From the NCBI GenBank assembly GCA_012959965.1, contig DUCF01000011.1, forward strand, positions 1 to 41,405: 41,405 bases of DNA, read 5' to 3'. Below, piece after piece: positions 3,343-32,422 of this stretch. The DNA comes from Candidatus Thioglobus sp. GTDB taxonomy: Bacteria; Pseudomonadota; Gammaproteobacteria; PS1; Pseudothioglobaceae. Positions within the stretch are counted from its first letter, which is position 1, and each line of letters starts with the position of its first letter. The translations under genes were made by a program, and so were the position numbers. The notes below the pieces were generated by a model, which did no database searches, had not been told where the DNA came from, and was given only the letters and a program-made list of their open reading frames with translations.

Positions 3343-4725
3343 TTAAATTCCAAACTTTTCTTGCACTTTAGCGGCACCGTTAACAACAGCAGAAACTAGG
3401 GTGTCAATTTGCTGCTCAGTGATAACAAAGCTTGGTGATACACCAATGGTGTCGGCAGAAGGTAGACCTCTGAGCAGTACTTTTTCCTCTCTTATGGCGC
3501 TTTGCAGTAGTGGCGCAGCTTTGTCAGCGCGCTCAAAAAATGTTTTCGGAGATTTGCTTTTGACAATTTGTAGGCCAGCTAACAGTCCAGCACCCCTAAC
3601 TTCGCCAATTATTGGGCAGCCATGTAATTTTTCCTTAAATTGAGCGTGCATGTAAGCGCCCGTTTCTTTGGCTCGCTCTACAAGGTTTTCTCGTTCCAGT
3701 ATTTCAATGTTTTTCAATGCAACAGCGCAACCTGTCGGGTGCCCGCTGTAGGTATAGCCATGGAAAAAAGCACCGAGTTCGTCAGCTGTTTCTACCAAAA
3801 CGTCCCACACCTTGTCGCCAATATAAAGCGCAGATAATGGGAAATAACCCGATGTTAAGCCTTTGGCTGTTGTCATAAGGTCGGGCTTGTAGTTGTAGTA
3901 TTGGTGAGCAAACCATTCGCCTGTACGGCCATAACCGGTGATTACTTCGTCAGCCAATAGCAAAATATCGTATTTGTCACAAAGCGCTCGCAAGCCCTGG
4001 AAGTATCCTTTTGGTGGGGTGATGACACCGCCGGCACCATAAATAGGCTCGGCAAAGAATGCGGCTACCGTATCTGCACTGGCACCAATAATGATTGTCT
4101 CGATTTCATCAAGCATCCGTTTGGTGAATTGTATTTCTGTTTCACCTTCTTTGCCATCAACGTAAAAATGCGGCTTGGGTGCTCTTAAAACACCGTCGAC
4201 TGGTAAATCAAAAGCAGTGTGAAACGCCGCAATGCCGGTGACACTTGCGGCGGCTAATGTGGTGCCGTGATAGGCATTAACCCTAGCGATGATTTTCTTT
4301 TTCTCTGGCTTGCCTCTAAGGTTGTTGTAGTAACGAACGAGCTTGATGGCGGTATCAATACAGTCAGAACCCGAAGTGCCGTACTGCACTCTGGAAAAAA
4401 CACCGCGAGTAAGGTCTAAGAGTTTTTCGCTGAGTTCAATCTGTGGTGTATTTGAAGTGCTGGCAAAGCTGTGGGCGTAGCCCATTGTGCTAGCGCTGTC
4501 CATCATTGTTTTGCCAATCTCCTCTCTGCCGTAGCCAATGTTGACACACCATAAGCCTGCCATGCCATCGATTAACTCTCCATCGTTGTGCGTTGTAATG
4601 TTGGCGCCTTTGCCCTCAAGACAGATAGTGGTGCCGTTATTCAGTACATCACTGATCGATGAGGCGGGATGGAAAATTGATTTTTTATTAATATCAACTA
4701 AATTTTCGTATTGTTTTTTTGTCAT
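3343..4725 (-). CDS. Class III PLP-dependent omega-aminotransferase
   Basis: A 460-residue fold-type I, class III aminotransferase of full length. Such enzymes move the omega-amino group of beta-alanine, putrescine, GABA, taurine or ornithine derivatives to pyruvate or 2-oxoglutarate. Landmarks are the N-terminal GELIDGMAGLWCVNIGYG, YGTSGSDCIDTAIKL (phosphate-binding loop), AYHGTT, the Asp of ILLLADEVITGYGRTG, and the Schiff-base lysine in TTAKGLTSGYFPLSA. The MAGLWCVNIGYG type resembles the omega-amino-acid:pyruvate and putrescine:pyruvate group more than AstC/ArgD. Downstream on the same strand are the mmsA relic and mmsA, which suits beta-alanine to malonate semialdehyde to acetyl-CoA. Divergent from it is an AST operon lacking astC, so succinylornithine is an alternative substrate. 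ATG at 4725. Confidence 0.88.
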   Translation of the reverse strand: MTKKQYENLVDINKKSIFHPASSISDVLNNGTTICLEGKGANITTHNDGELIDGMAGLWCVNIGYGREEIGKTMMDSASTMGYAHSFASTSNTPQIELSEKLLDLTRGVFSRVQYGTSGSDCIDTAIKLVRYYNNLRGKPEKKKIIARVNAYHGTTLAAASVTGIAAFHTAFDLPVDGVLRAPKPHFYVDGKEGETEIQFTKRMLDEIETIIIGASADTVAAFFAEPIYGAGGVITPPKGYFQGLRALCDKYDILLLADEVITGYGRTGEWFAHQYYNYKPDLMTTAKGLTSGYFPLSALYIGDKVWDVLVETADELGAFFHGYTYSGHPTGCAVALKNIEILERENLVERAKETGAYMHAQFKEKLHGCPIIGEVRGAGLLAGLQIVKSKSPKTFFERADKAAPLLQSAIREEKVLLRGLPSADTIGVSPSFVITEQQIDTLVSAVVNGAAKVQEKFGI

Positions 4726-4798
4726 AACGGCTGGTGGTGTAAATAGGTTAAGTGTAAAAAGCTTCTAACTGGTAGATTATAGACGAAGTAATATCGTT

Positions 4799-4825
4799 TA
4801 ATTACGCCATAATGAGGTGTAATTA
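4799..4825. promoter_or_regulatory. Palindrome in divergent promoter region, candidate operator
   Basis: Arms TAATTACGCC and GGTGTAATTA are complementary at 9 of 10 positions around a 7-nt spacer. The site lies in the 184-bp AT-rich gap between the divergent aminotransferase and the M20-ast operon, so a dimeric regulator bound here could control both sides. The regulator is not encoded in the immediate neighbourhood. It does not match the ArgR box I know (TGAAT-type arms). Confidence 0.45.
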
Positions 4826-4909
4826 TTAATAAAATTCTTTAATTATGTATATTTATCAGAAATATATAACTTATATGTAATAATATTAAGAAATAAATAT
4901 AAAACCATT

Positions 4910-6160
4910 ATGAGCGCATTATCACCAAAAATAACACAATTATTTAGCCAAATCGACGACCAACAAAACGACATGTTGGCCGAGCTCATTACTTGGTGCA
5001 ACATTAATACAGGCAGTACAAATTTTGAAGGTCTTAGTCAATTATCCAAAGTCTTGTGTGCCAAGTTATCGGAATTTGGCGAGGCGGAGTTTGTTGAGTT
5101 GCCAGATCGTGTCGTTGTCAATGACAAGGGTCAAGAAGTGTCTTTTCCATCCCCGCCTATTATAAGACTCAGTAAAGAGCAAGAGAGTAAACCGTCGGTA
5201 TTGTTGGTGGGTCATTACGATACGGTTTACGAAAAAGATCACAGTTTTCAAGTTTGTACAGATCTTGGTAATGGACTTATCAACGGTCCGGGAGTTGCTG
5301 ATTTAAAAGGCGGACTGTCAGTTATGTTTAAAGCGCTTGAGTGTTTGCGCGAAAATGGACTGATAGATGAAATCGGTATCGAAATATTGCTTAACCCTGA
5401 TGAAGAGATTGGCTCACCGTGTTCCGGTGCATATTTGGTTGAGCGTGCAAAATATCACGATGTCGGTCTTATTTTTGAACCCTCTCTGCCCGATGGGACA
5501 TTAGTGGGAGAGCGCAAGGGTTCAGGTAATTTCACCGTGCGTGTGAACGGAAAGTCTGCTCACGCCGGGCGTGATATTGAGGCTGGCCGCAATGCTCTTG
5601 TTCACTTAGTGACATTGTTTAATGAAATAAATGCACTGCATGGGCAGAAAGAAGGCCTGACCGTTAATATTGCTAGCATTCAAGGTGGCGGTGCGCTTAA
5701 TGTGGTTCCGGATTTGGCGGTCGGTCGTTTCAATTGTCGTATTGAGAGCAATGACGATATTGAGTGGTTAGAAGAAAGGCTTGCATCATTGATTGCCGGC
5801 CATGACTCAGTTGAAGGTTATCAAGTGGCGTTATTTGGTGGTATCACCAGAAGACCAAAGCCACTGACCAAGGCCAATCAAAATTTGCAAAATTTTATTA
5901 CTGAAACAGGTAGTTTGTTAGGAATAGATGTCGCTTACCGCGCCACTGGCGGGGTTTGTGATGGTAACAACTTATCGCAGAGCGGCCTACCAAATGTTGA
6001 CACGCTGGGCGTTCGTGGTGGCGATATTCACAGCATTAACGAATACATGGTGATTGATAGTTTGGCGGAACGCACTAAATTTGTTGCATTGATATTAATG
6101 CGTATGGCAAAAGGTGAATTCGATTTTATTCGCGACAGCGAAAAGTTAAAAGAGGCTTAA
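4910..6160 (+). CDS. M20-family zinc metallohydrolase, candidate succinylglutamate desuccinylase replacement
   Basis: A 416-residue M20 peptidase/amidohydrolase of the carboxypeptidase G2/ArgE/DapE clan. Metal and catalytic residues are visible in order: His and Asp in LLVGHYDTVYEKD, the bridging Asp in GPGVADLKGGLS, the catalytic Glu pair in LNPDEEIGSPCSGA, a Glu in LIFEPSLPDGT, then the lid/dimerisation domain starting at KGSGNFTVRVNGKSAHAG, and the C-terminal His in RGGDIHSINEY. There is no signal peptide, so it is cytosolic. It is the first gene of an operon with astA (4-bp gap), astD and astB. The classical AstE, an M14-like enzyme that hydrolyses N2-succinylglutamate, is absent here. 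M20 relatives hydrolyse N-acyl amino acids, so this enzyme could do that step (inference). ATG at 4910; the region upstream is very AT-rich and has no strong ribosome binding site. Confidence 0.85.
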   Translation: MSALSPKITQLFSQIDDQQNDMLAELITWCNINTGSTNFEGLSQLSKVLCAKLSEFGEAEFVELPDRVVVNDKGQEVSFPSPPIIRLSKEQESKPSVLLVGHYDTVYEKDHSFQVCTDLGNGLINGPGVADLKGGLSVMFKALECLRENGLIDEIGIEILLNPDEEIGSPCSGAYLVERAKYHDVGLIFEPSLPDGTLVGERKGSGNFTVRVNGKSAHAGRDIEAGRNALVHLVTLFNEINALHGQKEGLTVNIASIQGGGALNVVPDLAVGRFNCRIESNDDIEWLEERLASLIAGHDSVEGYQVALFGGITRRPKPLTKANQNLQNFITETGSLLGIDVAYRATGGVCDGNNLSQSGLPNVDTLGVRGGDIHSINEYMVIDSLAERTKFVALILMRMAKGEFDFIRDSEKLKEA

Positions 6161-6164
6161 GAAG

Positions 6165-7193
6165 ATGCAAATTGTTAGACCAATTCAAACCCAAGACTTA
6201 GACAAGCTGTTCGAGTTGGCGTCTAAAACAGGCGGCGGTATGACTTCTATGCCAGTAGATTGCGAGTTATTAGAAAAACGCATCAACACAAGTGTGAAGT
6301 CTTGTAGCGGTAATTTAAATGGTGACAGCTCCAAGACATTTTTTATGGTTTTAGAAGATGTTGAGAGTGGTGATTTGGTTGGCACAACAGCAATCTATAC
6401 CAACATTGGGCGAGAGCATCCTTTTTATTCTTACAAGGTGATGCGCGTTACTCAGCGTTGCCCTGAGCTTGATAAGACCAAAGAAACTAGGCTACTAACA
6501 CTGACTAACGATTACACCGGCACAACCGAAATTGGCTCATTGTTTCTATTGCCTGAATATCGTTTTGGCGGCAACGGCTCATTGCTATCTCGTTCACGTT
6601 ATATGGTTATGCACAACCATCCTGATCGATTTGATGAGAAGATTATTGCTGAAATGCGCGGATATCGCGATGAAAATGACCGATCTCCTGTGTGGGATCA
6701 TTTAGGCGTACATTTTTTTGGCATGGCTTTTGATGAGGCAGATGTTATGTCATCGGGTATTGGCGACAATAGTTTTATCGGAGATCTTATGCCAAAGTAC
6801 CCAATATATGTCGATCTATTGCATCCTGAAGCGAGAGAGGCGATTGGTAAGTTGTTTGAAGCAACTGCCCCAGCATTGCGAATGCTTGAAAAAGAGGGTT
6901 TTCACTATAATGATTATGTTGATATTTTTGATGGCGGTCCAACGGTTGAGGCCTACAGGGAGAATATTGCCACCATCAAAAACACTAAATCATTGACAAT
7001 TTCTGCTTTTCAAGATTTACCCGAAACAAAAAACAAAATGCTAGTCTCAACGACTTCATTGATTGATTTTAAAGCGTGCTTGTCGGATGTTCTTATAAAG
7101 GGCGATAGTGTCGTTATTAGCGAGTCTTTAGCGCAAATTTTAGGCGTTAATATTGGCGATCAATTATCAATAGCGCCAGGCCGAGTGGAGTAG
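6165..7193 (+). CDS. astA: Arginine N-succinyltransferase
   Basis: A 342-residue AstA, normal length, that transfers succinyl from succinyl-CoA to the alpha-amino group of arginine, the first step of the AST pathway. The fold is GNAT-like. Family segments seen are the N-terminal MQIVRPIQTQDLDKLFELA, GGGMTSMP, GTTAIYTNIGREHPFYSYK, TEIGSLFLLPEYR, and ISEMRG-type IAEMRGYRDENDRSPVWDHL followed by HFFGMAF and FIGDLMPKYPIYVDLL. The ATG at 6165 follows the M20 gene stop by 4 bp, so the two are almost certainly translated from one mRNA. astD follows after 8 bp. Together these genes feed arginine carbon to glutamate and succinate. Confidence 0.95.
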   Translation: MQIVRPIQTQDLDKLFELASKTGGGMTSMPVDCELLEKRINTSVKSCSGNLNGDSSKTFFMVLEDVESGDLVGTTAIYTNIGREHPFYSYKVMRVTQRCPELDKTKETRLLTLTNDYTGTTEIGSLFLLPEYRFGGNGSLLSRSRYMVMHNHPDRFDEKIIAEMRGYRDENDRSPVWDHLGVHFFGMAFDEADVMSSGIGDNSFIGDLMPKYPIYVDLLHPEAREAIGKLFEATAPALRMLEKEGFHYNDYVDIFDGGPTVEAYRENIATIKNTKSLTISAFQDLPETKNKMLVSTTSLIDFKACLSDVLIKGDSVVISESLAQILGVNIGDQLSIAPGRVE

Positions 7194-7201
7194 GAGGAGT
7201 T

Positions 7202-8677
7202 ATGATTAATAATGCATGCTATATAAATGGCCAGTGGATTTTTGGCAGGGGTAAAGAATTTACCTCCATCAATCCAGCCGACTCCTCAATCGAATGGCGA
7301 GGGCGTGGAGCCGATCCTGATCAAGTGATTGAAGCCGCTCAAGCCGCTAGAGATGCGCTTGATGCTTGGATGGATTCGGGTTATGAAAAGAGAGCTGAAA
7401 TTGTCCGTCGATACGCTGAACTGCTTAAAGACAACACCCAAGAATTAGCGGAAATGATCAGTCGAGAAATGGGCAAGCCCTTATGGGATAGCCTAACGGA
7501 AGTTGGCGCGATGGTTGGCAAAATCGCACTGAGCGAAAAATCCTATCAGCAACGCACTGGTTTTCAGTTCAATAAAGGCGAGTCCTTTAATAGTGTTCTG
7601 CGTCATAAGGCACACGGCGTTGTTGCAGTGTACGGACCTTATAATTTCCCCGGTCACTTGCCCAACGGCCACATTGTGCCAGCACTATTGGCGGGCAATA
7701 CAGTCTTATTCAAGCCAAGTGAAATCACACCAAAAATCGGTGAGATGATGATGGCCTTATGGGAAAAAGCCGGCTTACCAATGGGCGTCCTTAATTTAGT
7801 GCAAGGCGAAAAAGAAGTGGGTATTGCGCTTGCAAGTGCCGATATTAATGGGCTTTTCTTTACGGGATCGTCCCAGGTTGGCAAGATTCTACATAGACAT
7901 TTTGCTGGACGACCGGAGGTTAATTTAGCGCTTGAGATGGGTGGCAATAACCCTCTTATTGTTTCAAATGTCAGTGATATTGAGGCCGCTTGTTATCACA
8001 TTATTCAATCTGCCTTTATCACCTCGGGGCAGCGTTGCACTTGTGCAAGACGCCTCATTTTGCCTGATGGCGATGAGAAAGCAGATGCACTACTGGCCAG
8101 GCTTGTGCAGATGGCAAAAGAACTTAGGGTTGGCCTGTGGAGCGACGAACAAGAGCCGTATATGGGTCCAGTGGTCAGTGGTGATGTTGCGAATCATTTT
8201 CTATCTGTCGTTGATGACTTGGTGGAGCGAGGGGCTGGGCCACTTTTAATGCCGATGCAACTTAGAGACGTTGATGCCCTAGTTACTCCGGCAATTATCG
8301 ATGTGACTGATGTCAGTGATATTGAAGACGAGGAAGTCTTTGCGCCACTTTTGCAAGTTTATCGAGTGAAAGATTTTGACGCCGCTATCGCTACGGCTAA
8401 TAATACAAAATACGGTTTATCTGCGGGCGTAATTTCAGATGACAGAGCACTCTATGAGCGCTATTTAAGTCGCTCTCGTGCAGGCATTATTAATTTTAAC
8501 CGGCAAACGACTGGCGCTAGCGGTGCAGCCCCATTTGGCGGTATTGGTGCAAGTGGCAATCATCGTCCGAGTGCGTTTTATGCGCCCGATTATTGCGCCT
8601 ATCCAATCGCTTCAGTGGAGTCTGAGGAGGTGGTAACGCCAACGCAATTGCCGCAAGGGTTTTCTAAGGATAATTAA
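7202..8677 (+). CDS. astD: N-succinylglutamate 5-semialdehyde dehydrogenase
   Basis: A 491-residue NAD-dependent aldehyde dehydrogenase that oxidises succinylglutamate semialdehyde to succinylglutamate, step 4 of the AST pathway. Landmarks are the AstD N-terminal ACYINGQWIFGRG, the Rossmann segment YGPYNFPGHLPNGHIVPALL, FTGSSQVGKILHRHFAG, the general-base Glu in LALEMGGNNPLIV, and the catalytic Cys in TSGQRCTCARRL. A strong Shine-Dalgarno sequence (AGGAGG) lies just before the ATG at 7202. The stop codon overlaps the astB start by one base (TAATG), which indicates translational coupling. Confidence 0.95.
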   Translation: MINNACYINGQWIFGRGKEFTSINPADSSIEWRGRGADPDQVIEAAQAARDALDAWMDSGYEKRAEIVRRYAELLKDNTQELAEMISREMGKPLWDSLTEVGAMVGKIALSEKSYQQRTGFQFNKGESFNSVLRHKAHGVVAVYGPYNFPGHLPNGHIVPALLAGNTVLFKPSEITPKIGEMMMALWEKAGLPMGVLNLVQGEKEVGIALASADINGLFFTGSSQVGKILHRHFAGRPEVNLALEMGGNNPLIVSNVSDIEAACYHIIQSAFITSGQRCTCARRLILPDGDEKADALLARLVQMAKELRVGLWSDEQEPYMGPVVSGDVANHFLSVVDDLVERGAGPLLMPMQLRDVDALVTPAIIDVTDVSDIEDEEVFAPLLQVYRVKDFDAAIATANNTKYGLSAGVISDDRALYERYLSRSRAGIINFNRQTTGASGAAPFGGIGASGNHRPSAFYAPDYCAYPIASVESEEVVTPTQLPQGFSKDN

Positions 8678-10035
8678 TGAGCTACATCGAATACAATTTT
8701 GACGGCCTAGTAGGTCTTTCTCACCATTATGGTGGGCACAGTTTTGGTAATGTGGCTTCTAGCGCTAATAAGGCTGCTGTATCCAGCCCAAAACAAGCCG
8801 CCTTGCAAGGGCTAAAAAAAGCGAAAACATTGGCGGAGATGGGTTTGCAGACTGGCGGCTGGGGTCAGGCAATCCTTCCTCCGCAAGAGCGTCCGTTTTT
8901 ACCAGCTTTAAGACAACTGGGTTTTTCAGGCTCTAATGCTGAGGTTATCAGAAATTCGGCAAAAGCGCACCCTCAAATTTTCGCCAAAACTTGCTCTGCG
9001 GCAAGCATGTGGACAGCCAACGCGGCGACAATTTCACCGTCTCTAGATACACAAGATAGTAAAGTTCATTTCACTCCAGCGAATTTAGTGGCCATGTATC
9101 ACCGCAGCCTTGAGCATGAAACCACGGGCAATATCCTACAAGCTATTTTTGCAGATTCACGTTATTTTTCACACCACAAAGCACTGCCTCAAAACACGAT
9201 TTACGGCGATGAAGGCGCTGCCAACCATACTCGTTTCTACGATAATCATTCTGAGCCCGGTTTGGAGTTTTTTGTTTATGGTGCTGAGTCTTTTGCCAAT
9301 TCTCCGAGTGCGGTTAAACCGGCCAATTATCCGGCCAGACAGACACTGGAAGCGTCCTCCATTATTGCTCGAAATCACCAATTAAGCGCCGCCAATACTG
9401 TCTTTGCGCAACAAAATCCTGACGCTATTGATGCCGGCGTGTTCCATAACGACGTGATTGCGGTTGGCCACGGCAACTTTATGATGTGTCACGAGTGGGC
9501 ATTTTGGAACAAGGAAGCGACATACAGTGAACTCAAATCAGCTTTTTCCTCTGAGTTTTATGTTCATGAGGTGAGCAATAAAGATTTGCCTATTGAAGAT
9601 GTGGTTTCTAGTTATTTATTTAATTCACAGCTCATTGGCGATGCTGACAATGGTATGTTTATTGTTGCGCCACAAGAGTGTGCAGACAATGCTCGAGTAA
9701 AAGCGGTTATTGACAAAATCATTGATAACGATAATCCTGTGAAGGGCGTGCATTTTTTCGATGTTAAACAAAGCATGAGAAACGGCGGCGGTCCGGCGTG
9801 TTTGCGCTTAAGAGTTTTGCTGTCTCAACAAGAGGTTGACGCCATATCGGCACGTGTTGTATTGGACGACGCTTTGTATGCGGATTTAAGTGCTTGGATC
9901 GAGGTGCATTATCGTGATCAACTGACTGTCAATGATTTAGCGGATCCGAAGTTTTACGAAGAAGGTTGCACAGCGCTTGATGAGCTCACTCAAATCATGC
10001 GACTCGGTTCGGTTTATGATTTTCAGAAGGTTTAG
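8677..10035 (+). CDS. astB: N-succinylarginine dihydrolase
   Basis: A 452-residue AstB of the amidinotransferase/dihydrolase superfamily. It hydrolyses N2-succinylarginine to N2-succinylornithine, CO2 and two ammonia in the cytosol. Family signatures are the N-terminal NFDGLVGLSHHYGGHSFGN, LQTGGWGQAILPPQERP, the catalytic-His segment GVFHNDVIAVGHGNFMM, and the C-terminal catalytic Cys in RNGGGPACLRLRVLLS. Length is normal. It is the last gene of the operon. The convergent DAHP synthase gene ends 12 bp further on, leaving no room for a separate terminator. Confidence 0.95.
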   Translation: MSYIEYNFDGLVGLSHHYGGHSFGNVASSANKAAVSSPKQAALQGLKKAKTLAEMGLQTGGWGQAILPPQERPFLPALRQLGFSGSNAEVIRNSAKAHPQIFAKTCSAASMWTANAATISPSLDTQDSKVHFTPANLVAMYHRSLEHETTGNILQAIFADSRYFSHHKALPQNTIYGDEGAANHTRFYDNHSEPGLEFFVYGAESFANSPSAVKPANYPARQTLEASSIIARNHQLSAANTVFAQQNPDAIDAGVFHNDVIAVGHGNFMMCHEWAFWNKEATYSELKSAFSSEFYVHEVSNKDLPIEDVVSSYLFNSQLIGDADNGMFIVAPQECADNARVKAVIDKIIDNDNPVKGVHFFDVKQSMRNGGGPACLRLRVLLSQQEVDAISARVVLDDALYADLSAWIEVHYRDQLTVNDLADPKFYEEGCTALDELTQIMRLGSVYDFQKV

Positions 10036-12926: not shown

Positions 12927-14321
12927 CTAAGGGGCATATACTTTGGCTGGCAACCAGGTAACTATCTCTGGGAAAATGAAAATCAGAACAAGTGCGACTA
13001 ATTGTAGACCAATGAAAGGCACAACACCTTTGTATATATCAGTTAACTTGATACCTGGAGGGCAAACACCCTTTAAATAAAAAATTGCAAAACCAACTGG
13101 CGGTGTCAGGAAGGATGTTTGTAGAGTGACAGCTACCAACAGCGCAAACCAAACTAAACTCGGATTATCAACAACACCAAAACCGTTGATTGCAAGGTCA
13201 AGACCAAGAATCACCGGACCTAGCAAAGGCAAGATAATTAAGCTTATTTCAATCCAGTCAAGGAAAAAACCTAAAAGAAATATGACAACAAGTACGGTGA
13301 TAATCATCCCGTAGGGTCCTAGTCCAAGGCTATTTAAACCTTGCTCAATAAACTGATCTCCGCCGCATTCTCGTAAAACGAGGGCAAATATTGTTGCGCC
13401 AACAAAGATTCCAAAGATATAGGCAGAGGTGTTCATGGTGCTCATAACAACCTCTTTCAGGACTTTAAAGCTGAACCGCTTGTAGGCAACAGTTAAAACC
13501 ATTGCTCCGATAGCGCCAATACCTGAGGCTTCTGTTACGGTTGCAATACCCATAAAGATTGAGCCTAGGACAGAAAGAATAAGGAATGCAGGAGGCAGTA
13601 TGTCAATCATCACCTTCAAGACATCCTTCAAACCAATGGGTTTGTGGTCGATGGATAATGGCACTTTCTCTGGATTAAACCACCCATAAATAACAATGTA
13701 TAAGATGTAAAGCATGCCTAGCATTAGGCCTGGAAAAACAGCACCCATAAACAAATCAACAACAGAAACAGCAAGTTGATCGCCCATAATAACGAGCATG
13801 ATTGAAGGGGGTATCAAGATACCAAGTGTGCCAGACGCAGCAATTGTACCTAGCGCAATAGGCTTATCATATTTTTGCTTTAGCATAACCGGCAGAGACA
13901 TCAAGCCCAGCAATACAACAGAAGCGCCAATAATTCCAGTTGAAGCAGCAAGAATAATACCAATAATAGTAACCGTGATTGCAAGGCCACCCTTGACCTT
14001 TCCAAACAACCTTTGCATAGAGTTCATCATTTGCTCTGCTACGCCAGACTTGTCCAGCATCAGCCCCATAAAAATGAACATCGGCAAAGCGATTAACACC
14101 CAGTTATACATAATGGCAAATATTCTGCCGTGTAACATTCCAAGGGAATTGTAACTGAGCCCAGTAAACGTCCAATCAAGCATGTCAGTGACATAGCCAA
14201 CGCCTGCAAAAAGTATACCAACACCTGCCAGTACCCAGGCAACGGGGAAACCGGAAAAAATGAGTGTTATAAAAGTAACAAACATTGCAATAACAAGCCA
14301 ATATTCTGGTTCAAAAATCAT
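12927..14321 (-). CDS. dctM: TRAP transporter large permease (DctM)
   Basis: A 464-residue, very hydrophobic protein with about a dozen membrane segments, the large subunit of a tripartite ATP-independent periplasmic transporter that carries organic acids on a sodium gradient. Signatures include GFPVAWVLAGVGILFAG near the N-terminus, LPMFIFMGLMLDKSGVAEQM, SGTLGILIPPSIMLVIMG, FFLDWIEISLIILPL, and SFLTPPVGFAIFYLKGVCP near the C-terminus. I chose the ATG at 14321, two bases past the dctQ stop, because AAGGA lies 9 bases ahead. A TTG at 14327 is possible but too close to that Shine-Dalgarno sequence. It forms an operon with dctQ and dctP. Confidence 0.95.
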   Translation of the reverse strand: MIFEPEYWLVIAMFVTFITLIFSGFPVAWVLAGVGILFAGVGYVTDMLDWTFTGLSYNSLGMLHGRIFAIMYNWVLIALPMFIFMGLMLDKSGVAEQMMNSMQRLFGKVKGGLAITVTIIGIILAASTGIIGASVVLLGLMSLPVMLKQKYDKPIALGTIAASGTLGILIPPSIMLVIMGDQLAVSVVDLFMGAVFPGLMLGMLYILYIVIYGWFNPEKVPLSIDHKPIGLKDVLKVMIDILPPAFLILSVLGSIFMGIATVTEASGIGAIGAMVLTVAYKRFSFKVLKEVVMSTMNTSAYIFGIFVGATIFALVLRECGGDQFIEQGLNSLGLGPYGMIITVLVVIFLLGFFLDWIEISLIILPLLGPVILGLDLAINGFGVVDNPSLVWFALLVAVTLQTSFLTPPVGFAIFYLKGVCPPGIKLTDIYKGVVPFIGLQLVALVLIFIFPEIVTWLPAKVYAP

Positions 14322-14323
14322 AA

Positions 14324-14956
14324 TCAATTTTCCTTGTGATTAGTAATGCTTGGAGAAAAAAGGCGACCAATGGCAGAGCCACTATCGTTAGGAAATTTGC
14401 GAAGTGAGTTATCACCGTGGATCAAAAGAACAATATTTTTGATTAGTCCAGCTAAAGATGCGATAAAAATTAGAATCATCGACAAAGGTAAAATGCTTTT
14501 AACAACCCAGCGATAAGGTAAGCCCGTTGTGTTTTCTGAGAATTCGTTAACAGTAAAAGAATGATATGTCCAACCAATGCTATGATCAAGAACAATAAGG
14601 GTAAATGGCATAATCAATAAAACAATGCCTAAAACTTCGATAATGCGCTGTGTCTTTTTACTAAGATGCATGTGAATTATATCAACCCGAATATGGGCAT
14701 CTGTTGTGATGGCATGCGAAAGACCGAACATAAAGAATGCGTAAAGATGCCAGATAATTTCATCAACATAGGCTGGCGAGTTATGAAAACCGTAACGGAG
14801 TACAACATTAATCAATATAACTAAAATTACAAGAAGATTGACCCAGGCTGTTTTTGTTGTGATGGTTGTAACAATCGATGTCAAAAACGACACAATTGGT
14901 ATGTAAACACTATCTTTACAATGCACTGGAGTGAACTCTTCCGGTTTGTCTGACAT
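14324..14956 (-). CDS. dctQ: TRAP transporter small permease (DctQ)
   Basis: A 210-residue protein with four hydrophobic segments: LTSIVTTITTKTAWVNLLVI with LVILINVVL, IIWHLYAFFMFGLSHAIT, VLGIVLLIMPFTLIVLD, and SILPLSMILIFIASLAGLI. This is the DctQ layout. The landmarks YVDEIIWHLYAFFMFGL and DAHIRVDIIHMHLS correspond to the conserved (E)-W and D-hydrophobic core of the family. It binds DctM and, through it, the DctP-substrate complex in the inner membrane. The ATG is at 14956. A terminator-like hairpin separates it from dctP, so it is probably expressed at a lower level than the binding protein. Confidence 0.93.
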   Translation of the reverse strand: MSDKPEEFTPVHCKDSVYIPIVSFLTSIVTTITTKTAWVNLLVILVILINVVLRYGFHNSPAYVDEIIWHLYAFFMFGLSHAITTDAHIRVDIIHMHLSKKTQRIIEVLGIVLLIMPFTLIVLDHSIGWTYHSFTVNEFSENTTGLPYRWVVKSILPLSMILIFIASLAGLIKNIVLLIHGDNSLRKFPNDSGSAIGRLFSPSITNHKEN

Positions 14957-14993
14957 GGTTTAATTAATGATTTAAGTAATAGTATTATAATTC

Positions 14994-15027
14994 AAAAAAA
15001 AACAGCAGGACCTTCTTGACCCTGCTG
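14994..15027 (-). terminator. Attenuating terminator between dctP and dctQ
   Basis: Read on the minus strand, CAGCAGG pairs with CCTGCTG across an 11-nt loop and is followed by a run of nine T. That is a good Rho-independent terminator just after dctP and before dctQM. Partial termination here would give more of the periplasmic binding protein than of the membrane subunits, as is usual in TRAP and ABC systems. Confidence 0.75.
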
Positions 15028-15053
15028 CTCTGTTTTGTAGTGAAAATATTTAT

Positions 15054-16133
15054 CTACGAACCCTGCTTAGATGGACGTGGTAAATAAATCCATTCCTGCC
15101 AGTACTTGTAGTTTGCACGGAACTCATTAAGAGCGCCATAAATTTCACCAAACTCAGGATCTTCTGCAGTCAACTCATCTACAACTTCAAGCCACTTTTC
15201 TTCAAACGTAGCAAGCATCTCATCAGACCAATAATGGTTTGTTACACCTGATTCTTCTACGTTAGCTATCATGTAATCAAATTGAATCGCTTCACCTAAA
15301 GCCATGCCGTCAAGCATCGTTGCCTTACAAGCAGTCTCTACTACAGATTGCTGAGACGCACTCATACCAGCCCATGTGTCTCCGTTGATAATAATATCAA
15401 ACATTGTGGAAGGCTGATGCCATCCAGGATAGTAGTTGTGCTTTAAAAGCTTAGGAAAGCCTAAGAGCTTATCAATAGCTGGCATTGAGAACTCGGTTGC
15501 ATCAATTGCACCTTTCTCAAGTGCTGGCATAATATCTCCAGCTGCTAGTAGTGAAGTTGAAACGCCAAGTTTTTCCATTACGTTAGCACCTAAACCAAAG
15601 AAACGCATACGCAAACCTTGCAGATCTTCAACGCTATTGATTGGCTTTTTAAACCAACCTGATGTTTCTGGAGCGATGATAGAACAAGGGATTGAGTGGA
15701 CGTTGTATCCGGCATCATCATAAAGCTTTTGCCACAAGTCGCGGCCGCCACCATAATAGACCCACGCCATAAATTCAGGCGCTTCCGGTCCAAATGGAAC
15801 GGCTGAGAATATTGCAGCTTTTTTGCCAAGCAAGCCAGTGTTGTAACCCGGCGTACCCCAACCAGCATTTACTGTTCCGTTGGATACCGACTCTAACATT
15901 TCCTTTGTGGCAATCAGTTTATTTGGTTCGTAAATTTTGACTTTTACACTGCCACCTGAAGCTGTATTAACAGTCTCAGCAAAGAACAACGGCGATGATC
16001 CGAGTCCTGTTAGATGGGTTCCAAACCATACAGGCAGTTTAAGTAGTACTTTTTCTTCGGCAACCGCAGTAGTTGCAACACCAAATGTAAGCGCTGCCAC
16101 TGTGCACATGCTGACCAGTGATTTTATTTTCAT
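15054..16133 (-). CDS. dctP: TRAP transporter periplasmic substrate-binding protein (DctP family)
   Basis: A 359-residue protein with a clear Sec signal peptide (residues 1-25, cleavage likely after TTAVA). It captures an organic acid in the periplasm. Family segments include the signature Arg in LQGLRMRFFGLGANVMEKLG, ALEKGAIDATEFSMPAID, and FPKLLKHNYYPGWHQPS. The GGGRDLWQKLYDDAGYNV and GWHQPSTMFD segments resemble the TakP/lactate-binding branch that takes 2-oxo and 2-hydroxy acids (family knowledge, from memory). Next door is an lldD-like 2-hydroxyacid dehydrogenase, so lactate or a similar acid is the likely ligand (inference). A strong Shine-Dalgarno sequence (AAGGAGA) precedes the ATG at 16133. 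It is divergent from the GntR regulator. Confidence 0.92.
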   Translation of the reverse strand: MKIKSLVSMCTVAALTFGVATTAVAEEKVLLKLPVWFGTHLTGLGSSPLFFAETVNTASGGSVKVKIYEPNKLIATKEMLESVSNGTVNAGWGTPGYNTGLLGKKAAIFSAVPFGPEAPEFMAWVYYGGGRDLWQKLYDDAGYNVHSIPCSIIAPETSGWFKKPINSVEDLQGLRMRFFGLGANVMEKLGVSTSLLAAGDIMPALEKGAIDATEFSMPAIDKLLGFPKLLKHNYYPGWHQPSTMFDIIINGDTWAGMSASQQSVVETACKATMLDGMALGEAIQFDYMIANVEESGVTNHYWSDEMLATFEEKWLEVVDELTAEDPEFGEIYGALNEFRANYKYWQEWIYLPRPSKQGS

Positions 16134-16183
16134 AAGATTGTCTCCTTTTTTTATTAAAATTACTTACAAAAATACAAGTGGTA

Positions 16184-16227
16184 AATTGGTAAGTCCAATC
16201 AATAATATACTAACATTTTATAAATGT
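16184..16227. promoter_or_regulatory. Candidate GntR/LldR-type operators between dctP and the regulator
   Basis: At 16184-16200 the sequence AATTGGTAAGTCCAATC is a near-palindrome with ATTGG/CCAAT arms, very close to the AATTGGTNNNACCAATT site bound by FadR-subfamily regulators such as PdhR and LldR. At 16213-16227 ACATTTTATAAATGT is a perfect 6+3+6 palindrome. Both lie in the 137-bp divergent gap, where the GntR protein would autoregulate and control the TRAP operon. Confidence 0.6.
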
Positions 16228-16270
16228 CAAATTTTAAATAAGCCTTGCACTTAACGTAAAATATAGTAGA

Positions 16271-17059
16271 ATGGAAAAAAATAATTGGACAGACCACTTA
16301 ATGAAGAACACACCAACCATCGCAGAATCTATTGCAAAACAACTTGAAGAGATGATTGCGGGTGGCGCTTTGAAGCCTGGAGAGCGATTGCCGTCCGAAA
16401 GAATACTGGCTGAAAGACTCGGCGTATCTCGTCCGTCACTTCGCGAAGGAAAACAAATATTAACCTCCAAAGGACTACTAACTTCTCGACAAGGTGGGGG
16501 TACATATATTCAAAATAACCTTAATTCTGGCTTGACTGACCCGTTAATGGACTTGTTAAAAGAGAGGCCAGAGTTTAGATACGACATTTTGGAAGTAAGG
16601 CATGCTTTAGATTCGCAGGCGGCCTACTATGCTGCTCATAGAGCGACAGAAAGCGATAAAGAAAACATAGTAAACGCCTTTAATGATATGGTGAAATTGC
16701 AAAAAGCCAATGGTGATCCGGTTGCCTCTGCGGAGGCGGATACAAATTTTCACCTGAGTATTACTAAGGCATCACACAATATGGCGCTACTTCATATTTC
16801 ACGAAGTCTTTTTAGTGTATTGCAAAGCAGCATTGAGAAAAACTTAGATAAATTGTACTCGGTACCAAAATCTGGAACTAAGCTCACCGATCAACATAAG
16901 GCATTAATGGATGCGATTCTTGCAGGCGATGCCAATGAGGCTAAGCTAGCAGCACAAAGCCATATGGTGTATGTGGAGGAATCGATGCATGACATTTACA
17001 AAGAACAAGAAAGACATGAGCGATTTCTTCGTCACGCCTCAATTTTAGCTAGCAAGTAA
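16271..17059 (+). CDS. GntR-family (FadR/LldR subfamily) transcriptional regulator
   Basis: A 262-residue regulator. A winged helix-turn-helix occupies roughly residues 12-77 (LKPGERLPSERILAERLGV, then SRPSLREGKQILTSKGLL and RQGGGTYI), followed by an all-helical FCD ligand-binding domain. The metal/ligand residues expected in FCD domains appear as Asp and His in ADTNFHLSITKASHN and as His in LTDQHKALMDAI and KLAAQSHMVYVEE. Members sense small carboxylates such as lactate, pyruvate or glycolate and release DNA on binding. It is divergent from the TRAP operon and 45 bp upstream of the lldD-like gene. It probably controls both (inference). An in-frame ATG at 16301 is an alternative start that would remove ten residues. 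Confidence 0.9.
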   Translation: MEKNNWTDHLMKNTPTIAESIAKQLEEMIAGGALKPGERLPSERILAERLGVSRPSLREGKQILTSKGLLTSRQGGGTYIQNNLNSGLTDPLMDLLKERPEFRYDILEVRHALDSQAAYYAAHRATESDKENIVNAFNDMVKLQKANGDPVASAEADTNFHLSITKASHNMALLHISRSLFSVLQSSIEKNLDKLYSVPKSGTKLTDQHKALMDAILAGDANEAKLAAQSHMVYVEESMHDIYKEQERHERFLRHASILASK

Positions 17060-17104
17060 ATTATTTATTATTAACAAACATTAATTAGCTTTAAACACAA
17101 CATT

Positions 17105-18253
17105 ATGCAACTAAAAAACTGCCACAATTACGCTGACTTTCGCTCACTAGCCAGAAGCCGTATCCCGTCCCCTTTGTTTCATTATATTGATGGCGGTGCG
17201 GACGATGAATACACACTGGAGCGAAACACCAAAGCGTTTGAAGAATACTATCTAATCCCTAACGGCTTATCGGATGTTGCCAACATCGACACGTCAACCA
17301 CTATATTGGGCCAGAAAGTTAGCTCCCCACTATTTCTCGCGCCAACAGGCATGAGTCGTTTATTTCACCATGACGGCGAGCGAGCAACCTCTCTTGCAGC
17401 TGAAAAATTTGGACAATACTATAGCCTTTCAACATTGTCATCCGTTAGCATTGAAGAGATTGGCGACTTAATTGATACGCCAAAGATGCTACAAATATAT
17501 ATTCATAAGGATCGTGGACTTACTTACGAGCTTATTGAGCGTTGTAAAAAGGCAAAATTTTCATCACTATGCCTAACAATCGATACCATTGTGGCCGGAA
17601 ACAGAGAGCGCGATCTGAGAACTGGCATGACAATGCCGCCCAGGTTTACGCCATCAAGCTTGTTGGGCTTTGTCATGCGCCCACGCTGGGTATTAAACTA
17701 CTTTACTCATGAGGCTTTTAAACTAGCCAATCTTGAGGGGAAAACCGAGAAGGGCAGCAAGGAGTCTCTATCCGTTATTGATTATATCAATTCACAGTTT
17801 GATACTAATTTGTGCTGGGAAGACGCTCAGAAAGCGATTGAAGCCTGGGGCGGTCCTTTTGCTATCAAAGGTGTTATGTCAGTTGAAGATGCCAAGCGCT
17901 CTGTTGATATCGGAGCAACCGCCATCATGGTCAGTAACCATGGTGGAAGACAATTGGACTTTAGTCCTGCACCAGTCGATTTGTTGAGTGATATCGTTGA
18001 CGCAGTTGGCGGTAAAATTGAAATCATTTGCGATGGCGGCATCAGACGCGGAACGGATGTACTTAAAGCCCTGGCTCTTGGTGCAGATGCGTGCTCTATT
18101 GGTCGCCCTTATTTGTACGGATTGGCTGCAGGTGGGCAGGCTGGTGTTGAGGCTGTGTTGTCCAAATTTGAATCTGAAATTAAGCGTAATATGATGCTAT
18201 TGGGCATTAATAAGTTGTCACAGCTTGACAGATCTAAAGTCCGCAAAAGATAA
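17105..18253 (+). CDS. lldD: FMN-dependent L-lactate / 2-hydroxyacid dehydrogenase
   Basis: A 382-residue alpha-hydroxyacid dehydrogenase, a TIM-barrel flavoprotein that oxidises L-lactate or a related 2-hydroxy acid to the 2-oxo acid and passes electrons to quinone or oxygen. Visible residues are Tyr in FHYIDGGADDEYTLERN, the FMN segment LAPTGMSRLFHHDGE, Arg in GNRERDLRTGM, the catalytic His in VSNHGGRQLDFSPAP, and the phosphate-binding end DGGIRRGTDVLKALALGADA. The LldD, glycolate oxidase and mandelate dehydrogenase branches are hard to separate by eye; LldD is favoured by length and by the LldR-like regulator. The TRAP transporter nearby probably supplies the substrate. The 162 bp after it hold nothing I can name. 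Confidence 0.88.
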   Translation: MQLKNCHNYADFRSLARSRIPSPLFHYIDGGADDEYTLERNTKAFEEYYLIPNGLSDVANIDTSTTILGQKVSSPLFLAPTGMSRLFHHDGERATSLAAEKFGQYYSLSTLSSVSIEEIGDLIDTPKMLQIYIHKDRGLTYELIERCKKAKFSSLCLTIDTIVAGNRERDLRTGMTMPPRFTPSSLLGFVMRPRWVLNYFTHEAFKLANLEGKTEKGSKESLSVIDYINSQFDTNLCWEDAQKAIEAWGGPFAIKGVMSVEDAKRSVDIGATAIMVSNHGGRQLDFSPAPVDLLSDIVDAVGGKIEIICDGGIRRGTDVLKALALGADACSIGRPYLYGLAAGGQAGVEAVLSKFESEIKRNMMLLGINKLSQLDRSKVRKR

Positions 18254-30184: not shown

Positions 30185-30640
30185 CTAATTATCCAGTGGT
30201 AATTCTGTGGTGAATTTGATTTCTTCAATGGCGAAATTTGAAGTCACTTTGAGGAACGGCACCTTTTCGATTAAGCGTTTATAAAAGCTATCATAGCTGT
30301 CAATATCGCCGACAATCACTTTGAGTAGATAGTCGATTTCACCACTCATGCGGTAGCACTCAAGCACTTCCGGGAAGTCTTTAATCGTTTCTGCGAAAAT
30401 TTTGATCTTTTCTTGGTCGTGGGTGTTAATGGTGACAAAGACAATGGCGGTGACATTGAGTCCGACGCGCTTGCGATTAATCAAAGACACTGTTTTGTTA
30501 ATAAAACCCAGATTTTTAAGTTGCTTGATGCGCTTCCAGCAGGGCGTTGTGGATAAATGCACTTCCTTGGATAGCTGCTGTACAGTCATTTCAGCATTTT
30601 TTTGCAGCAAATCCAGTAGTTTTCTATCGATTGCATCCAT
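30185..30640 (-). CDS. Lrp/AsnC-family transcriptional regulator
   Basis: A 151-residue regulator with an N-terminal helix-turn-helix (DAIDRKLLDLLQKNAEMTVQ, LSKEVHLSTTPCWKRIKQL) and a C-terminal RAM/AsnC ligand-binding and oligomerisation domain (VFVTINTHDQEKIKIFAETI, VLECYRMSGEIDYLLKVIVG). The STTPCWKRI recognition helix is typical of Lrp-like proteins that respond to amino acids. It is divergent from cysI, with a 135-144 bp AT-rich gap, and could regulate cysI and the TSUP gene (inference). The ATG is at 30640. The effector is unknown. Confidence 0.92.
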   Translation of the reverse strand: MDAIDRKLLDLLQKNAEMTVQQLSKEVHLSTTPCWKRIKQLKNLGFINKTVSLINRKRVGLNVTAIVFVTINTHDQEKIKIFAETIKDFPEVLECYRMSGEIDYLLKVIVGDIDSYDSFYKRLIEKVPFLKVTSNFAIEEIKFTTELPLDN

Positions 30641-30744: not shown

Positions 30745-30784
30745 GATACTATAATCGTTGGTATGTCTTATTTGAGTGAATCTT

Positions 30785-32422
30785 ATGTACCAATACAATA
30801 CAGATGACACGGCTTTCTTAGTTGAACGTGTTGATCAATTTGAGAAGCAGTTAGATCGTCACTTAGTGGGTGATTTAGACGCGGCTAAATTCAGAAGTCT
30901 TCGACTTAGAAACGGCCTCTACATGGAGTTGCATGCTCATATGCTGCGTGTGGCCATCCCTTACGGTATCCTTAATACTGAGCAACTCAGAGCTTTGGCC
31001 GATGTGGCCGATAAGTATGACCGTGGATTTGGTCATTTTACAACTAGACAAAATATTCAATATAACTGGATTGAGCTGCCACAAATCGCCAATTTATTGC
31101 GCGACCTTTCTTCGGTGGGCTTGCACGCCATTCAAACCAGTGGCAAGGCGATGCGTAATATTACCGCTGACCCATTCTCTGGCCTAACTGAAGATGAAGT
31201 TGAAGACGCGAGACCTTATTGTGAGCTTATTCGACGTTGGTTTAATATTCATCCAGAATTTTCGTGGTTGCCGAGTAAGTTTAAAATGGCCATCAATGGC
31301 GCAAAGCTAGATGAAACTGCCTTGCAGATTCACGATCTTGGGCTGAAAATTGTTAGAAACGATGCCGGCGAATTAGGCTTTGCAAGTTATGTTGGTGGTG
31401 GCCTTGGCGCTGCACCAATGGTAGGTCCAGAGATCCACCCATTTGTTCCAGTTGAGGACATCATTAGTTACCTTGAGTCGGTTCTTAGAATTTACAATTT
31501 GAAAGGGCGACGAGACAACCTGAAGCGACTGCGTATTAAGTTCTTGGTTCGTGAGCATGGCGCGGCTGAATTCGCAAAAATGGTCGATGAGGACTGGCAG
31601 CACGGCAAAGACGATCCGGCATTAAAACTCAATATGGAAGAGCTGACAAAATTAAAACAAGATTTTACTCTGCCTATAGAGTCACTTGATTTGGTTGATT
31701 TTAAAGACACGCTCGATATCAATTACAGCATTTGGAAAACGAACAATGTTAGAACGCATAAAGTAGCGGGTTATAGTGTTGTCAATATTTCCCTAACGCA
31801 ACTTGGCACAGCGCCGGGTGATGCGACTTCTGAGCAAATGAGAATGATTGCCGATTTGGCAGATAAGTATTCTAACTCGGAGTTAAGAACGACAAAACGC
31901 CAAAACCTTGTGTTTCCATACGTTAGACAAGATCAGGTGTATGCGCTTTGGCAAGAGCTGGAAAAAAGTGATTTAGCGAGTCCCCACAACGGCACTTTGG
32001 CACACGTGGTTGCTTGCCCTGGAGCGGATTATTGCGATTTAGCGAAAGCAGTTTCCATTCCAATCGCACAGCAAGTTCAGCAGCGCTTTGATGATATGGA
32101 TAAGTTATACGATATTGGCCCAATAAATATCAATATTTCGGGTTGTGAGAATTCTTGTGCCCACCATCATATTTCCGACATCGGACTTCTTGGCTTAAAA
32201 AAGAACGAGCAAGAGTTTTATCAAATAACACTCGCTGGTGAAACGCTGCAAGAAACAGTCATCGGTAGAAAACTTGGTCGCTCCATTGCTGGCGCCGAAG
32301 TGGTTGATGCGATCGAAGATATTGTGAATATTTACCTAGACAATAGAGAGGAAGGCGAAAACTTCGTTGATGTCTTTAAACGTATTGGTATTGCCTCATT
32401 TAAGGAGAAGGTCTATGGTTGA
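30785..32422 (+). CDS. cysI: Assimilatory sulfite reductase hemoprotein subunit
   Basis: A 545-residue siroheme/[4Fe-4S] sulfite/nitrite reductase. It reduces sulfite to sulfide with six electrons for cysteine synthesis. Landmarks are YNTDDTAFLVERVDQF, RLRNGLYMELHAHMLRVAIP with PYGIL, FTTRQNIQYNWIEL, and the cluster/siroheme cysteines in VVACPGADYCDLAK and NISGCENSCAHHHISDIG. I chose the ATG at 30785 because it gives the family start MYQYNTDD; a GTG at 30776 is possible. No cysJ flavoprotein is next to it, so electrons probably come from ferredoxin. The DUF934 gene overlaps its end by 8 bp. Confidence 0.93.
   Translation: MYQYNTDDTAFLVERVDQFEKQLDRHLVGDLDAAKFRSLRLRNGLYMELHAHMLRVAIPYGILNTEQLRALADVADKYDRGFGHFTTRQNIQYNWIELPQIANLLRDLSSVGLHAIQTSGKAMRNITADPFSGLTEDEVEDARPYCELIRRWFNIHPEFSWLPSKFKMAINGAKLDETALQIHDLGLKIVRNDAGELGFASYVGGGLGAAPMVGPEIHPFVPVEDIISYLESVLRIYNLKGRRDNLKRLRIKFLVREHGAAEFAKMVDEDWQHGKDDPALKLNMEELTKLKQDFTLPIESLDLVDFKDTLDINYSIWKTNNVRTHKVAGYSVVNISLTQLGTAPGDATSEQMRMIADLADKYSNSELRTTKRQNLVFPYVRQDQVYALWQELEKSDLASPHNGTLAHVVACPGADYCDLAKAVSIPIAQQVQQRFDDMDKLYDIGPININISGCENSCAHHHISDIGLLGLKKNEQEFYQITLAGETLQETVIGRKLGRSIAGAEVVDAIEDIVNIYLDNREEGENFVDVFKRIGIASFKEKVYG

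Follow-up and report, generated by a model that had tools for sequence, protein, structure and literature searches.

An AST operon headed by an M20 metallohydrolase

How does an AST pathway reach its end products when the operon that encodes it holds no astE? The question is raised by a stretch of DNA of 41,405 nucleotides (hereafter the window), a 41.4-kb contig of a 1.79-Mb Candidatus Thioglobus genome that is 99.69% complete and assembled in 95 contigs. The plus strand of the window carries, at 4910-10035, a 416-aa M20 metallohydrolase that we propose to be an N-succinylglutamate desuccinylase (4910-6160; NF005602/PRK07338, 486 bits against a cut-off of 357), then astA for arginine/ornithine N-succinyltransferase (6165-7193; TIGR03243, 383 bits, cut-off 284), astD for N-succinylglutamate semialdehyde dehydrogenase (7202-8677; TIGR03240, 718 bits, cut-off 579) and astB for N-succinylarginine dihydrolase (8677-10035; TIGR03241, 629 bits, cut-off 538). 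Because the M20 gene and astA are 4 bp apart, astA and astD are 8 bp apart, and astD and astB overlap by 1 bp, we treat the four genes as one tight operon. AstD and AstB score above the curated equivalog cut-offs; AstA passes the subfamily model and falls slightly below the arginine-specific equivalog TIGR03244 (360 bits, cut-off 391). The presence of AstA, AstD and AstB orthologues together in one operon assigns the locus to the AST pathway.

Facing away from the operon on the minus strand is a gene for a 460-aa class III omega-transaminase (3343-4725), here called AT3, after which comes a methylmalonate-semialdehyde dehydrogenase (MMSDH) gene (1426-2928). The 184-bp AT-rich stretch that separates AT3 from the M20 operon (4726-4909) is, from the divergent layout, presumably home to both promoters. 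The open reading frames and family scores bear out the arrangement described in an earlier note made from the sequence alone, which placed astA, astD and astB behind an M20 gene with a class III aminotransferase divergent from them.

The same note had taken the M14-type astE to be absent and had called for a search of the full genome. We found no match to the TIGR03242 profile at E ≤ 1e-3 in the whole genome, and none to the PF04952 profile in the source genome or in 57 relatives, so that this claim held. The companion claim, that a classical astC is also lacking, holds as far as the operon goes but fails at the level of function, since an ArgD/AstC-family transaminase lies on a different contig (G000:C22:10944-12080; TIGR00707, 458 bits, cut-off 410). 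Because this bona fide ArgD is encoded elsewhere in the genome, the AstC step has a classical candidate, and the M14-type AstE is the pathway member that the genome lacks.

Compared with E. coli astCADBE, the operon has the same astA, astD and astB enzymes; M20 operons differ in carrying the M20 gene for astE and ArgD-family or AT3 genes for astC, and some relatives lack astB and have a gene of the ureohydrolase family. AstE itself (TIGR03242, of the M14-like AstE/AspA superfamily) shares with the M20 protein the proposed reaction, the place in the pathway and the partners astA, astD and astB. It differs in fold and is unrelated in sequence, and its gene stands last in the E. coli operon, whereas the M20 gene usually precedes astA.

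AstE and the M20 family exclude one another in the sampled Pseudomonadota

If the M20 protein fills the place of AstE, the two should rarely meet in one genome, and the earlier note had suggested a survey of M20 genes alongside astABD in genomes that lack astE. We searched 370 genomes of the same class with profiles for AstB, NF005602 and AstE. A phylum sample yielded 120 AstB-positive genomes; from these we took 40 Gammaproteobacteria, each of a different genus, together with every one of the 40 genomes of other classes, and ran the AstE and NF005602 profiles against the resulting 80. The scored set comprised 103 AstB-positive Pseudomonadota genomes, with genome G385 left out on account of a spurious AstB match. 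AstE alone was present in 49 of them, the M20 family alone in 50, both in none and neither in 4 (Fisher p ~5e-25, uncorrected for phylogeny). Expressed for the AstB-positive genomes that lack AstE, the M20 family was found in 50 of 54. Within Gammaproteobacteria alone (63 genomes) the corresponding counts were 49, 13, 0 and 1 (Fisher p ~1e-12, again uncorrected for phylogeny), and at the family level AstE occurred in 17 families and M20 in 16 with no overlap. Control genomes behaved as two opposite types: E. coli gave AstE and no NF005602, and Caulobacter vibrioides gave AstA, AstB and NF005602 above cut-off and no AstE.

This exclusion is in part phylogenetic, as the sampled Alphaproteobacteria are nearly all M20-type. 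It is not the effect of one lineage, because a tree of 66 AstB sequences demands at least five switches between the AstE and M20 labels, two of which are forced by strongly supported branches; an independent-pairs test on those branches yields two contrasts, too few for significance alone.

The M20 gene also keeps its company. All 16 class-sample genomes with an above-cut-off M20 protein have the gene in or adjoining an AST operon, in the order M20-astA-astD-astB and in some with an ArgD-family gene directly ahead. Among 80 named loci from species genomes, which span Kordiimonas, Hellea, Caulobacter, Brevundimonas, Marinobacterium, Neptunomonas, Oceanospirillum, Amphritea and SAR324, astA is present in 76, astB in 64 and astE in none, and a contig end truncates two of the four loci without astA. 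Of 30 further loci, 29 show M20>astA>astD or M20>astA>astB. Synteny across 16 families and more than 100 loci rules out a chance neighbourhood of M20 and AST genes.

The M20 protein resembles carboxypeptidase G2

The M20 protein matches NF005602 (PRK07338) over residues 9-405. This NCBIfam equivalog is named only 'hydrolase' and has no functional assignment, and the function that we propose for its window member is put forward here. A family search with the protein returned only M20 families (Peptidase_M20 and M20_dimer) and a sub-threshold M28 match, with no homology to AstE. An identity as DapE or ArgE was ruled out by the scores against dapE_proteo (65 bits, cut-off 362) and AcOrn-deacetyl (48 bits, cut-off 298), and the PRK06133 glutamate carboxypeptidase model gave 200 bits against a cut-off of 349.

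An AF2 model of the protein (mean pLDDT 96.5) found its best solved match by Foldseek in carboxypeptidase G2 (CPG2; E 3.5e-33, TM about 0.73-0.79, 26% identity), which is also the nearest solved relative by sequence. The protein has the features of CPG2-like M20 enzymes, namely catalytic and lid/dimerisation domains and a predicted dinuclear metal site. The next structural match was DapE with bound succinate and diaminopimelate. DapE (5VO3, 8F8O) liberates succinate from an amino acid nitrogen, as proposed for the M20 protein, and has the M20 fold; it differs in sharing about 20% identity, in models that score 65-88 bits against cut-offs of 284-381, and in releasing another amine product. The proposed reaction, N-succinylglutamate to succinate and glutamate, would combine the activities of CPG2 and DapE. 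CPG2 liberates L-glutamate from the N-acyl-glutamates folates and methotrexate (PMC2362096, PMC2001364). A precedent for M20 enzymes in arginine metabolism is BT3549, a predicted N-succinylcitrulline desuccinylase (PMC7311316).

Aligned with CPG2 (1CG2, 6XJ5), the M20 protein has all of the metal and catalytic residues: H112, D141, E175, E176, E200 and H385 of CPG2 correspond to H102, D131, E165, E166, E190 and H374. The statement in the earlier note that every M20 metal residue is in place was thus correct. By index arithmetic on the alignments, the CPG2 residues H229, N275, R288 and R324 correspond to H218, N264, R277 and R314, and all ten positions are invariant across 70 family sequences. 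CPG2 differs in its substrates and in having no AST context, and where it carries the motif GGGTDAAY the M20 family has an invariant GGxCDGNN. Being common throughout M20, the invariant residues are predictive of competence and not of specificity for succinylglutamate.

From the absence of astE in the whole genome, the mutual exclusion, the operon position and the CPG2 fold, we conclude that the M20 protein is very probably a dinuclear-metal N-succinylglutamate desuccinylase, with its reaction predicted from this evidence, and a non-orthologous replacement of AstE, as the earlier note had proposed. That M20 folds host many specificities is a point against this conclusion.

A predicted five-step pathway and its transaminase

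In the pathway that we propose, AstA would succinylate L-arginine, and AstB would hydrolyse succinylarginine, with release of CO2 and 2 NH3, to succinylornithine. The next step would fall to a transaminase, either ArgD from the other contig or the divergent AT3 or both, which would turn succinylornithine into succinylglutamate semialdehyde; AstD would oxidise the semialdehyde to N-succinylglutamate. Because AstD is kept, succinylglutamate must be both formed and removed, and the M20 enzyme is predicted to hydrolyse it to succinate and L-glutamate. By homology to CPG2, two metal ions would sit on H102, D131 (bridging), E166, E190 and H374, E165 would be the general base and activate the bridging water, and H218, N264, R277 and R314 would bind the oxyanion and the carboxylates of the substrate, with part of these contacts made across the dimer.

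The choice of transaminase is less certain. The earlier note had conditionally assigned the succinylornithine step to AT3, and one part of that assignment stands: AT3 travels with the operon. We surveyed its distribution in the 29 genomes of the genus and, beyond the genus, at AST loci. Copies at 88-94% identity occur in only 3 of the 29 genomes, those that hold the operon, and the remaining genomes have paralogues at ≤40% identity only. Beyond the genus, an AT3 clade (support 99/96) lies divergent beside AST operons at five other loci (L093, L094, L098, L115 and L124). The copies are 73% identical in the two Hyphomicrobiales MAGs and 48-50% in the remaining three MAGs, and at all five loci the operon lacks ArgD. 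At L093 an alanine dehydrogenase gene comes after AT3, consistent with pyruvate as the acceptor. The other part of the assignment is weakened by the true ArgD in the genome, by the ArgD-family genes that hold this place in other M20 operons, and by the grouping of AT3 in the omega-transaminase branch, apart from ArgD/AstC, with a TIGR00707 score of 214-217 bits (cut-off 410) that leaves it outside that family.

We therefore advance only tentatively, at a little short of an even call, the prediction that AT3 serves the operon as its dedicated, pyruvate-dependent succinylornithine transaminase, alongside or instead of ArgD. The MMSDH gene next to AT3 recalls beta-alanine catabolism and is a further point against the prediction, but the idea that AT3 is an unrelated beta-alanine or omega-amino-acid enzyme is itself weakened by the strict co-occurrence in the genus and the recurrence at AST loci.

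Other possible roles for the M20 enzyme

Among the alternatives to the desuccinylase assignment, the one that survives best would make the M20 enzyme an upstream feeder, a peptidase or an N-acyl-arginine deacylase that supplies arginine, with succinylglutamate excreted or cut by an unrelated enzyme. Dipeptidases and deacylases do occur among M20 enzymes, and the M20 gene heads its operon whereas astE closes that of E. coli. A feeder, however, would not be expected to avoid AstE in every genome or to appear in nearly all AstB-positive genomes without it, and a CPG2-type fold with conserved carboxylate-binding residues suits an N-acyl-glutamate; we consider the feeder role very improbable.

Slightly less probable still is that the enzyme desuccinylates succinylornithine, yielding ornithine, rather than succinylglutamate. 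The acetylornithine deacetylase ArgE, an M20 enzyme, is among the structural neighbours, but the ArgE and DapE models score far under their cut-offs (48-113 bits) with CPG2 as the nearest relative, and most operons keep, next to the M20 gene, AstD, which acts on succinylglutamate semialdehyde.

That an AstE is encoded and was overlooked through assembly gaps or divergence has a negligible probability in spite of the 95 contigs, given the completeness of the genome, the TIGR03242 and PF04952 searches of the genome and its relatives, which rule it out within the reach of these profiles, and the equal absence of AstE from eleven other M20-type genomes of the class sample, one of them a single contig (G169).

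The four genomes with AstA and AstB and neither desuccinylase (G061, G457, G754 and G686) indicate that a third solution or another use of AST genes exists. Their AstB proteins are divergent, score under the curated cut-off and are encoded outside any AST operon, and these genomes may not run the classical AST pathway. A search beside their AST genes revealed no third desuccinylase; the neighbours were HGLS and FAD oxidase genes in G061, and MotA/ExbB, ankyrin and pilus genes. In G061 (L265:3520-9640) an astC-astA-astD operon without AstE or M20 is followed by a gene for 2-oxoadipate dioxygenase/decarboxylase (HGLS, lysine catabolism) and an FAD oxidase gene, and its AST genes are possibly repurposed.

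Variation among M20-type loci and origin of the block

M20-type loci vary in their other genes. Operons of the form M20-astA-astD without astB carry, right after astD, a gene of the ureohydrolase superfamily (355-367 aa; L076:10778-11881, L085:11515-12618 and L089:10663-11730) that scores 78-128 bits against agmatinase and arginase models, all under cut-off, with 47-51% identity to the L076 copy. This gene may replace astB, its product acting as an arginase or a succinylarginine ureohydrolase. Loci of the Oceanospirillaceae type have two adjoining astA-like genes downstream of the M20 gene (L100, L107, L108, L110, L114, L116, L117, L120, L123, L126, L135, L139, L146, L151, L163 and L164); the pair recalls AruF/AruG, the two-subunit succinyltransferase of Pseudomonas. 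At one SAR324 locus, where astA lies upstream and a search of the locus showed no astD, the M20 gene and astB are separated by a radical-SAM gene that matches the lysine-2,3-aminomutase C-terminal domain (L109:9197-10309).

An Lrp/AsnC regulator gene (L115:7388-7897) separates AT3 from the M20 operon at one of the AT3-bearing loci; AstR of Acinetobacter is an AsnC-family activator of ast genes (PMC12478604). The window has an Lrp-type gene of its own at 30185-30640, far from the operon. Positions 30776-32422 encode a sulfite/nitrite-reductase-like hemoprotein for which the NirA, CobG and CysI models all score under their cut-offs. A probable cluster for the uptake and oxidation of alpha-hydroxyacids lies at 12927-18253: a TRAP transporter large permease gene with small-subunit-like and binding-protein-like ORFs alongside (identified by eye), an L-lactate dehydrogenase-like gene and a divergently oriented gene for an LldR/PdhR-like regulator of the GntR type.

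Within the genus the AST operon is accessory (3 of 29 genomes). The five-gene block at 3343-10035, AT3 divergent from M20-astA-astD-astB, recurs with the same layout and 60-73% identity in the Hyphomicrobiales MAG loci L093 and L094, and the M20 protein has 33-47% identity to those of other Gammaproteobacteria. To judge from these identities, the block has most probably been transferred horizontally between classes.

A broader reading, which we hold to be rather unlikely as a whole, would make AST a modular pathway in which AstE is swapped for the M20 desuccinylase, AstC for the pyruvate-dependent omega-transaminase AT3 and AstB for a new ureohydrolase, with the swaps repeated and the block, AT3 included, moving horizontally between classes. 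Under the same reading, the ureohydrolase (families f100 and f21) would make ornithine or act directly on succinylarginine, and the M20 swap would be wide in Alphaproteobacteria and in many marine Gammaproteobacteria.

Implications for arginine catabolism

Our literature search found no open-access paper that assigns an M20 enzyme to the succinylglutamate step, and neither astE nor desuccinylases come up in a 2022 GapMind paper on gap filling. The probable replacement of AstE by the M20 family is best placed as repeated, widespread and non-orthologous, a variant of a known pathway with a predicted reaction. At present, an annotation pipeline would report EC 3.5.1.96 as missing from these organisms and leave this conserved protein as 'hydrolase'. 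If the proposed function is true, the last step of arginine catabolism would be filled for roughly half of the AST-encoding Pseudomonadota in our samples, among them Caulobacter, Brevundimonas, Kordiimonas, Marinobacterium, Oceanospirillum and Neptunomonas. A hidden gap would thereby be closed in hundreds of genomes of marine and freshwater bacteria, including that of the model bacterium Caulobacter, and the AST operon would offer a natural example of a repeated non-orthologous swap between two unrelated metallohydrolase folds inside one operon.
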